Part shown: piece by piece, positions 27,341 through 37,685 of the stretch
How positions within the stretch are numbered: the stretch's first letter is position 1
Layout: every line of letters begins with the position of its first letter
Origin: Branchiostoma lanceolatum
Taxonomy: Eukaryota > Chordata > Leptocardii > Amphioxiformes > Branchiostomatidae
DNA length: 64,000 bases
Assembly: GCF_035083965.1 (NCBI RefSeq)
Contig: NC_089724.1
Coordinates: 29,625,435-29,689,434, forward strand
Reading direction: 5' to 3'
Notes under the pieces: model-generated
What the model was told of the DNA's origin: nothing
The model's input: the letters and a program-made list of their open reading frames with translations, nothing else
Database searches by the model: none
Position numbers and translations under genes: made by a program

Positions 27341-30212
27341 CTAGAGACGAGTCTCCTCTTCATCACCACTTGTGTTCTCCATCACATTGGCCAACGTTTT
27401 CGTGGGTACTTCTGTAGCAGAGCCGGTTCCACCTGCCGTTGTCTCAGTTCCACCTGCCATGGTCCGCCGGTCGCTGGCAGTGGCGGCTTCTTCATTGTCT
27501 TTATGAACTTCAGCCGGATGAAGGCGTGCCCTGTTCTCCACATCGGCCAAAGGTGACATCTCTATATCTGTAGCGGTTCCGTCTGTCGTGGCCTCAGTCC
27601 CATATGCGTTGGTCTGCCGGTCGCTGGCAGTGGCGGCTTCTTCATTGACTTCATGATTTTCAATCAGATGAAGGCGTGCCCTGTTCTCCACATCGGCCAA
27701 AGTTGACATCGGCATATCTGTAGCGGTTCCACCTGCCGTTGCCTCAGTTCCACCTGCCATGGCCCGCCGGTTGTTGGCAGTGGCGGCTGCTCCATTGTCA
27801 TGATGAACTTCAGCCAGATGAAGGCGTGCCCTGTTCTCCACATCGGCCAAAGTTGACATCGGCATATCTGTAGCGGTTCCACTTTCCGTTGCCTCAGTTC
27901 CACCTGCTGTAGCCCGCCGGTTGCTGGCAGTGGCGGTTGCTCTATTGTCATGATGAACTTCAACAAGATGAAGGCGTGCACTGTTCTCCACATCGGTCAA
28001 AGTTGACATCTCTATATCTGTAGCGGTTCCAGCTTCCGTGGCCTCAGTCCCATCTGTTGTATCCTGCCGGGCGCTGGCGGTGACGGTTGCTCCATTGTCT
28101 TGGTGAACTTCAGCCAGATGAAGGCGTGCACTGTTCTCCACATCGGCCAAAGGTGACATGGGTATGTCTGTAGCGGTTCCACCTGCTATAGCCTCAGTCC
28201 CATCTGTTTTAGCCTGCCGGTTGCTGACAGTGGCGGCTTCTTCATTCACTTGATGAACTTCAGCCAGATGAAGGCATGCCCTGTTCTCCACATCGGCCAA
28301 AGTTGACATCGGTATGTCTGTAGCGGCTGCACCTGCCGTTGCTTCAGTTTCACCTGCTGTAGCCTGCCGGTTGTTGGCAATGGCGGTTGCTCCATTATTC
28401 TGATGTGGCTCTCCCAGACCAAAGCGTTCCCTGATCACAGACTTCCATTTCTGCACCACCTCCGACGTCATTATCAGTGCCACTGTCAGCAGAAGGCCTT
28501 GAGAAGCATTCAGCACAATGAAGATGTAGTCGAGAACTCTGCTGTTGACGAAAGGGAATATGAAGCCGAGAATCCAGGTGAACCCCGTCAGAAAGGAGAT
28601 ACGCAAGTAGACCCAGGCCTTGCTGATGTTTGAGCGCGACAATGCAGCGTCGGCTATTTGAAATGACTTCCGTATGGTTAGCAAGACAATAGTGACAAAG
28701 ACAGCATTGACCAGAAGAGCACAGAGGACGGGAAGTCCAAAAGCCAACAGACTGCCGATCGGATTGCCGATCCAACAGCTCTCCCCGTAACCCACCCTGA
28801 CAGAACTGCCGAATTCCACAATCACTGTCATTACGACTATAGGCACAGGCATCAGCCACGTATACAAGAGGTACTTGTACATTGCCGCTCTTTCTAAGCC
28901 ATCACGAAACGTAAGAAAGAGATCCACAGCTAGTGCGTTCATGGATGTGAAGGCTGTCAGGAACAGATAGTGCAGCAGTATTGCATACGCTGCACACACC
29001 GGTCCGGGAGGGACGAACAAACGTACCACAAACATGACTTCAGCAAGAGCCATGCATGTCAGCATCTGGACCTTCAGCTTTTCCGGGACTTTTTTCCACT
29101 GGCCAGACCTGACAGTGTGGACCACGAAACAAAACACGGCTACAGCAGACGCTATTACAAGGCCGAGGGTTAACCAACCCTGGACAGGGTCCTGACTGTT
29201 GGCTGTTTGCGTATCGTTCGAGAAGTACTGCAGTATGCACTCCCCGCAGATCGATGCTGTTGTGTTCAGAATGACCACCTGCTCAGCTGGACAGGACACA
29301 TTAGAACTCAGCAGATGGACACTACCATTGGGAAGGACGTGGAACTCTTCCGCTGTGAACGTCAAAGCGGGTTCGCTGCAGTTTTGTAACGGGATAGTTT
29401 TGTTTGCTGAGCCATGACTTCTGCTAGCCGACGAAAAATGCCGGCACGTGTCTACAAAGGGGTCGAATACAGTGTCAGAGGGACACTGATTGGGACTGTC
29501 TTCACCATTCTCATCGACATCAAAGTTAAACAGGAGAGTTAGTGACATTTTTTCGATACATCGAGATTCACCGATACATCTTTGTCTAAATTGGTTACGA
29601 GCAAAAGCGGTACCACACCTAAGGTTAGTGGTCGCCGTCAGGGAAAGTCCTTCACAAAGAGCACAGTGTAGGTTTCTGTAGGTCTTATAGCTACTGAAAA
29701 TAGGAAAGCTGTAAGACATGCAGGCAGTCATATCACAATGTGCATTTGAAAACTTTGGCTTGGGGGAAAGACATTGTCTCGCATTGTCATCGAGAATCTT
29801 GAATTCTAGCTTGTTTGCACCAATGCAACCCTCCACCTCTTCAAACTGAAGAGTACGGAGAACATTCTCTAGTGTACCTACGGAGGTTTGTGCAGAAGGA
29901 CTAAGCTGTCCAGAACACACAGGTCTGGACATCCAAAAATATGCTTCTGACATTGTCACATTGTTACAAAGAGCACAGAACATGTTTCTGTAGTAGATTT
30001 TGTATGGATTATCTTCCACAGGTACTCTGTACACCATGTCACCGAGGCTGAAGGGATCCACTTGTTGTAAACATTGCTCCCTTGTGAAGTCATCCGTCCA
30101 TTCGTCAGGACAGTCAGCAACCATCCAATAGGACGGCCAGTTGGTAAAGCCCGAAACACACTTCCACTGCAGCCGGTAATAGTCAGGTGGTTGTTGAACG
30201 GAACTGTCTACT
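27341..30212 (-). other. Terminal GPCR exon: cysteine-rich region, 7TM domain and repeat tail
   Basis: A 2872-base exon. It opens with [20 protein letters not shown] and a region with repeated YRNMFCALC / YRNLHCALC motifs, which in related receptors precedes the helices. The linker [14 protein letters not shown] is like the Methuselah-family stalk. Helix 1 begins [20 protein letters not shown] (about 29190 downward), helix 3 contains [15 protein letters not shown], helix 6 [16 protein letters not shown], and helix 7 ends near 28455. The cytoplasmic tail (about 28430-27341) contains the 50-residue repeats and ends EETRL-stop. Confidence 0.9.
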
Positions 30213-37300: not shown

Positions 37301-37685
37301 GTAAATACCAGTCGCCAAAGCTGTCCTGTAGCGAGGAACCCGCTCAGATCAACTTCATTCAGATATATTTCGTCCCCTACTTGATTTACAATGCTACCAC
37401 CTAGATGTGATGCAGGGAATTGTTTTACAGTCTCAAACCGCTTTCCTGGTGACATTGAACGGAACACTGTTACATCCCGACTGTGGTAGTACCACATGTG
37501 AACTCGGGAGAGTGTTATGGGGGTCTGCAGGTCAAAGGTTAGCCACCAGATGTCCTCTGTAGCTGCAAGTTGCCAGCCGGTTCTTAGGTTGGAGTCCAGA
37601 ACATAGCCGGCAACATGTCGTACACCGTCGTCGTCCTCCCATTCGTTCGGTGTCGCCCATGTCGGGTCGGTCTCCACCCAGCCAC
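27341..37685 (-). CDS. Mosaic seven-helix receptor: discoidin-like, LDLa x4, kringle x2, SMB, 7TM (5' end missing)
   Basis: Exons in transcript order: 37685-37242, 36924-36814, 35961-35866, 35498-35328, 33811-33716, 32545-32306, 31937-31874, 31375-31185, 30857-30722, 30212-27341. All junction phases agree and give about 1472 residues. Module order: a discoidin-like sandwich, four LDLa modules, a one-exon kringle, a two-exon kringle, somatomedin B, a cysteine-rich region, seven helices and a long repetitive tail. The helices look like class B / Methuselah-like receptors; I see no GPS cleavage motif before helix 1. No start codon or signal peptide was found; upstream exons may lie beyond the foldback element or be undetected. 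From memory, lancelets have many adhesion-like receptors with kringle, LDLa and somatomedin B modules, and this fits that group. Ligand and G protein unknown. Confidence 0.88.
27391..28370 (-). repeat. 150-bp tandem repeat coding 50-residue units in the GPCR tail
   Basis: The word catcggccaa (or catcggtcaa) recurs at 27541, 27691, 27841, 27991, 28141 and 28291, exactly 150 bases apart, with partial units at both ends. The encoded unit begins [20 protein letters not shown] and ends with [18 protein letters not shown] text. It is Ala/Thr/Gly-rich and probably disordered. The period is a multiple of three, so unit gain or loss keeps the frame. Confidence 0.95.
30722..30857 (-). other. Somatomedin B exon
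   Basis: The translation has the eight-cysteine pattern of a somatomedin B domain: C-x5-C, then [18 protein letters not shown] with adjacent CC. Phase 1 entry and phase 2 exit fit its neighbours. The domain is a small disulphide knot used in vitronectin and related proteins for protein binding. Confidence 0.9.
31053..31083. repeat. GAT trinucleotide repeat
   Basis: A short imperfect (GAT)n run in the intron between the somatomedin B and kringle exons. Confidence 0.85.
31185..31937 (-). other. Kringle domain encoded by two exons
   Basis: Exon 31937-31874 gives [20 protein letters not shown] and exon 31375-31185 gives the rest: [38 protein letters not shown] and [11 protein letters not shown]. 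The six cysteines and the core RNPDxxxRPWCY are kringle hallmarks. The small first exon is only 64 bases long; phases 1 and 2 fit exactly. Confidence 0.92.
32306..32545 (-). other. Kringle domain encoded by one exon
   Basis: Begins [20 protein letters not shown], continues [19 protein letters not shown] and ends [19 protein letters not shown] with [12 protein letters not shown]. It is a complete kringle in a single exon, unlike the split kringle that follows. Confidence 0.92.
32588..32905 (+). mobile_element. tRNA-derived SINE
   Basis: Head gtggcgtactgaatagaaca, B box agttcgatcccgg, then gtgcccttgggaaaggcact, cactcaggtgtaaatgagta and a body ending ccccggtgtgccatggtcca. The copy at 63446-63770 is close over nearly the whole length. 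It lies in the intron directly 5' of the one-exon kringle. Confidence 0.8.
33350..33685 (-). mobile_element. tRNA-derived SINE
   Basis: Minus-strand copy: head near 33685 (gtagcgtagtggcagggtgt), B box ggttcgaatccgg, then agaaaaggcactttacacga and the tail reaching the word tgcatatccgtactgattta. It is about 30 bases from LDLa exon 33716-33811. Confidence 0.75.
34264..34384. repeat. CA/TA microsatellite
   Basis: (CA)n followed by (TA)n, then another (CA)n block, in a GPCR intron. Confidence 0.95.
34790..34892 (-). mobile_element. SINE tail fragment
   Basis: Matches the body of the 33350-33685 SINE: cagggaaggacacctactct and ctcctcaaacacgggacctc. The tRNA-like head is absent. Confidence 0.55.
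35047..35295. mobile_element. GC-rich MITE with about 45-bp inverted ends
   Basis: Left end aagccccctctcactggacc cgcggcacgctggcggcgtc; right end gacgccgccagcgcgccgcg ggtccagtgagaggggggct. The arms are nearly perfect and GC-rich while the middle is AT-rich. It sits about 30 bases beyond the donor of LDLa exon 35498-35328. Confidence 0.85.
37242..37685 (-). other. Discoidin-like carbohydrate-binding-type exon
   Basis: A 148-codon phase 1-1 exon. It contains [40 protein letters not shown] and ends [14 protein letters not shown]. The spacing of WxxTFDLxxPxxxSRV and the closing ExxF strand resemble galactose-binding-like (F5/8C) domains, but the match is weaker than for the two F5/8C domains at 55274-60166. 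Confidence 0.6.

Follow-up and report, generated by a model that had tools for sequence, protein, structure and literature searches.

How could a multi-module adhesion receptor signal without a recognisable GAIN domain or GPS motif? This question is raised by a locus in the Branchiostoma lanceolatum genome, for which we analysed a window of 64,000 nucleotides (nt), that is, the whole stretch of DNA presented above. The reading that we prefer, with a probability of about 0.7, is that a single gene specifies a membrane receptor of 1501 residues, composed of outer modules, a cysteine-rich coupling region other than GAIN, an adhesion-like seven-helix domain (7TM) and a long repetitive tail. Its observed basis is an open frame, a set of modules of which two match weakly, the DXK motifs of the kringles and no recognisable GPS. 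The result is a full gene model for a chordate receptor type assembled from the kinds of module known from plasminogen and vitronectin, and the gene looks real, complete and ordinary in kind for amphioxus.

To establish the gene structure, we re-examined the ten exons with consistent phases that an earlier note on this DNA had proposed. Running from 37685 to 27341 on the minus strand, these exons are indeed bounded by AG acceptors and GT donors and join with agreeing phases into a single frame, an agreement that, the borders having been chosen by eye for frame, is weaker support than an independent prediction. The phases are 1-1 for the first six of the ten exons, followed by 1-2, 2-1, 1-2 and 2-0, and the joined protein has 1472 residues, with the sole stop at the end of the frame. 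The exons of the earlier span thus stand; a signal peptide is absent from it, and the likely exon for one, overlooked at the time, was found upstream (Table 1). This exon 1 encodes MGHPSLTRTSLVLLWGLCQCVSGAFGLA, likely including the predicted signal peptide, and its end in phase 1 at the donor fits exon 2. Its addition extends the frame to 4506 nt and 1501 residues with a single terminal stop, and all ten introns (317 to 10,049 nt long) are GT-AG, again with borders chosen to fit.

Table 1. Exons and tail repeats of the predicted receptor gene (window positions; exons numbered as in the 11-exon model).
Feature	Positions	Strand	Basis
Exon 1: initiation codon and probable signal peptide; phase 1 at its end	47735..47819	-	Start ATG followed by hydrophobic residues; donor GTAAGC, with GGT as junction codon
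Exon 2: weakly matching discoidin-like module (F5/8 type C)	37242..37685	-	Pfam E 0.00088, below cut-off; PDB best E 0.63
Exon 3: LDLa 1, 6 cysteines	36814..36924	-	Pfam and cysteine count
Exon 4: LDLa 2, 4 cysteines	35866..35961	-	Pfam and cysteine count
Exon 5: LDLa 3 with insertion, 8 cysteines	35328..35498	-	Pfam and cysteine count
Exon 6: LDLa 4, 4 cysteines	33716..33811	-	Pfam and cysteine count
Exon 7: kringle 1, motif DGK at the lysine-binding position	32306..32545	-	Pfam; PDB alignments
Exon 8: first part of kringle 2	31874..31937	-	Pfam
Exon 9: second part of kringle 2, motif DNK at the lysine-binding position	31185..31375	-	Pfam; PDB alignments
Exon 10: somatomedin B (SMB)-like module, 7 cysteines	30722..30857	-	Pfam E 0.0018, below cut-off; weak PDB rows; cysteine count
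Exon 11: juxtamembrane region rich in cysteines, 7TM, tail with repeats, stop codon	27341..30212	-	Pfam 7tm_2 (E 1.4e-16), motifs, hydrophobic windows
Cytoplasmic tail: tandem repeats of 150 bp (50 residues) in about 6.5 copies	27424..28405	-	TRF; six units of exactly 50 codons

The join of exons 1 and 2 is less certain than the others because intron 1 is long (10,049 nt), rich in repeats and holds inverted arms, and exon 1 could belong elsewhere or further exons could intervene. Three copies of a repeat lie at 43415-47773 with a spacing of 1644-1677 nt and take in the 3′ portion of exon 1 together with its donor site. Arms of approximately 690 bp in inverted orientation (38017-38705 and 40638-41328), which are 94-100% complementary by segment, are perhaps those of a transposable element. 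We considered whether the two further copies of the 3′ portion of exon 1, at 46095 and 44430, could serve as alternative first exons and rejected the idea, as in neither is the last upstream stop followed by an ATG in frame.

A domain search of the joined 1472-residue protein revealed two kringles (Kringle, E 1.1e-41, two stretches) and four LDLa modules (Ldl_recept_a, 1.2e-15, four stretches) ahead of the 7TM (7tm_2, 2.8e-16), all above the curated Pfam cut-offs. These parts of the module list given earlier are therefore sound, whereas the discoidin-like and SMB modules listed with them are weak matches below the Pfam cut-offs. Searched alone, the discoidin-like exon reached 19.8 bits with F5_F8_type_C against a cut-off of 28.2 (E 0.026 for the whole protein), and its PDB search returned one match. 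The SMB exon alone reached 19 bits against a cut-off of 23.1; SMB was absent from the whole-protein Pfam list at E up to 1, and the PDB search with this exon gave four weak rows, led by an endoribonuclease (E 0.4) and then vitronectin (E 0.52). Each kringle has six cysteines, and the listed ectodomain segments hold 62 cysteines in total, an even number. Taken together, the 7 cysteines of the SMB exon and the 21 of the juxtamembrane region likewise make an even number, as would be the case if an eighth SMB cysteine were encoded in the 7TM exon; by parity, and short of proof, this speaks for the SMB and 7TM exons belonging together. Altogether, 889 residues precede TM1, signal peptide included, a long multi-module N-terminus of the kind that characterizes Adhesion GPCRs (class B2).

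Kringles had been linked earlier to blood-protease systems, an allusion that is weakened by the motif following CRN, which is DXK in both kringles, as opposed to the DXD/E of the lysine-binding type. In a PDB search with the kringles at E up to 0.001, plasminogen and hepatocyte growth factor (HGF) were best among the best 60 of 91 sequences, and both receptor kringles align to theirs; the receptor differs from these proteins in lacking a protease domain among its Pfam matches and in having DXK in place of DXD/E. The same alignments show DGK at this position in plasminogen kringle 3, where, according to a review, DXK abolishes lysine binding; a further account reports that this kringle binds a lysine analogue poorly owing to the lysine in the DXK motif (PMC11231438). 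Since both receptor kringles carry a motif said to abolish binding, they would not be expected to bind C-terminal lysines, and we rejected lysine-capturing kringles on the same ground (DXK in 2/2). Proteases with both kringle and LDLa modules have also been reported from amphioxus (PMC6337849), so the pairing is not peculiar to receptors.

As for the helices, 14 hydrophobic windows follow the signal peptide and were grouped by eye into seven. When the 7TM was used to search the PDB at E up to 0.01, adhesion receptors made up 25 of the 28 sequences and ranked first (best ADGRL2, 5.5e-14), ahead of three corticotropin-releasing factor (CRF) receptors (best 4.3e-4). The adhesion-like character assigned to the helices earlier is thus upheld, with solved adhesion receptors ranking above secretin-type ones, and a 7tm_2 domain closest, among solved structures, to adhesion receptors is what class B2 would have. 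The TM3 region may bear a likeness to that of Methuselah receptors; Pfam searches found no Methuselah_N ectodomain, whether in the whole protein (E up to 1) or in the juxtamembrane region (E up to 10). Beyond the helices lies the repeated cytoplasmic tail, which the earlier note did not mention. Its units preserve length and frame, and their sequence is not visibly constrained: pooled pS is 0.127 and pN 0.158, with pairwise dN/dS of 0.72 to 2.47 (13 of 15 pairs), so that no purifying selection is visible between units.

Between the SMB module and TM1, at the position where a GAIN domain would be, lies a juxtamembrane region of 326 residues. It contains two half-repeats that had gone unremarked before, YRNMFCALC and YRNLHCALC (YRNxxCALC), and the two parts of the region align with a score of 61, where 2000 shuffles reached 55 at most, the division having been made after the motifs were seen. 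Searches at E up to 10 gave no convincing match to this region in Pfam (a single zinc-finger model at 0.1) or in the PDB (seven sequences, best Sidekick-1 at 0.086). A further possibility, which we hold tentatively and rather doubt, is that the YRNxxCALC region represents a family of extracellular domains not described before. In an ancient Methuselah-type branch, this family would have taken the place of GAIN and would link the adhesion modules to the helices with no autoproteolysis involved.

The evidence that bears on the missing GPS has to be weighed against the alternative of a conventional adhesion GPCR, in which GAIN and GPS are present but too diverged for sequence searches and signalling by a tethered agonist is retained. 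The closeness of the 7TM to solved adhesion receptors would suit such a receptor, as would the GPS reported for many amphioxus Adhesion GPCRs (PMC2246102). However, the whole-protein Pfam list (E up to 1), from which HMMER filters drop most weak matches, contained no GPS or GAIN family, and three cysteine/tryptophan patterns for the GPS, applied without a positive control, were negative. The H-x-S/T pattern matched four times, once within the signal peptide, and the match nearest to TM1 lies approximately 79 residues ahead of it. At the level of sequence, then, the absence of a recognisable GPS, as claimed earlier, is borne out by both kinds of search and sets the protein apart from the GPS/GAIN definition of class B2; we regard a hidden, diverged GAIN as unlikely. 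The protein is best read, on these features, as an adhesion-type receptor without recognisable GAIN.

Two further alternatives question the gene itself. The model was built from genomic sequence alone, and introns of the lengths given above could hide gene ends, in which case two genes, one for a secreted protein with kringles and LDLa modules and another for a 7TM receptor, would have been joined on paper. Against such a division, frame and phase run on across the junctions, the last SMB cysteine appears to be encoded by the 7TM exon, and published receptors carry kringle and SMB ahead of a 7TM (PMC2246102), leaving two genes quite improbable. A pseudogene or an assembly mosaic would account for the repeats of intron 1, the duplicated pieces of exon 1 and the unconstrained tail repeats; it is hard to square with 1501 open codons interrupted by GT-AG introns and with an even number of ectodomain cysteines, and we consider it the least probable of these readings.

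For the single receptor without recognisable GAIN, which remains our preferred reading, the order of modules suggests how it may work: signal peptide, weak discoidin-like module, four LDLa modules, two kringles, SMB, an internally duplicated region rich in cysteines, 7TM and tail. The outer modules would probably dock onto a partner, either a protein or a surface, and for the kringles this docking would probably not involve the lysine pocket of plasminogen. The cysteine-rich region would probably stand in for GAIN and couple binding to the helices without self-cleavage, and signalling would follow a rearrangement induced by ligand or force as opposed to exposure of a GPS-tethered peptide. From these features we infer splicing, expression, partner binding, coupling and G-protein signalling of the receptor. 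Judging by the DXK motifs, it would be a receptor without the lysine chemistry of plasminogen. With its unnamed juxtamembrane region, the question posed at the outset, of signalling by a multi-module adhesion receptor in which neither GAIN nor GPS can be recognised, becomes testable.

Receptors of this kind have been known in amphioxus since 2008, and the present gene offers a detailed look at one and no surprise. Nordstrom 2008 described 37 amphioxus Adhesion GPCRs, with kringle and SMB in sequences from a ten-gene expansion and with LDLa (named in the running text) and discoidin (from the legend of a figure) among the domains (PMC2246102). Kringle and SMB before an adhesion-class 7TM are common features of that expansion and of our receptor, which we compared with it by description, not by sequence. 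Kringles in a GPCR, noted earlier as unusual, are therefore real as an architecture but were already on record. The literature matches listed include no subsequent paper that deals specifically with kringle receptors of amphioxus; a 2025 choanoflagellate study counts kringle among Adhesion GPCR domains (PMC12716839).

On Methuselah-like receptors the literature disagrees: in the sections consulted, Nordstrom 2008 reports no methuselah receptors in amphioxus (PMC2246102), whereas de Mendoza 2016 reports Mth/Mthl homologues in lancelets, with SMB in one homologue each of B. floridae, S. kowalevskii and N. vectensis and with non-arthropod members that also lack the Methuselah_N ectodomain (PMC4768249). 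These SMB-bearing receptors of lancelet, hemichordate and Nematostella share with ours the SMB ectodomain, a 7tm_2-class 7TM and the lack of Methuselah_N; unlike in our receptor, kringle and LDLa go unmentioned in the consulted part of that account (PMC4768249). The same holds for planarian PARF1 and Nematostella NvX, which have a usually single SMB in an Adhesion-like receptor and for which the consulted text names neither kringle nor LDLa (PMC3261222). Within the consulted portions of the literature cited here, we found neither DXK in both kringles nor a partly duplicated cysteine-rich region at the GAIN position. A B. belcheri adhesion GPCR is down-regulated after poly(I:C) (PMC5752451), with no tie to the present gene established.

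The window also holds other genes. An LDLa-rich gene (48716-51560, plus strand) is divergent from the receptor and lies approximately 0.9 kb from its exon 1; it has 21 Pfam stretches up to 51307, followed by a TAG at 51308-51310 within an LDLa repeat, beyond which LDLa sequence resumes in frame. Recent copying of the receptor's LDLa modules from this neighbour was considered and rejected, on weak grounds (best match 65.5 bits over the module chain). Further away, at 4277-6943 on the plus strand, an uninterrupted 889-codon frame encodes a receptor tyrosine kinase with Ig, laminin-EGF and cadherin matches, the last just below its cut-off.
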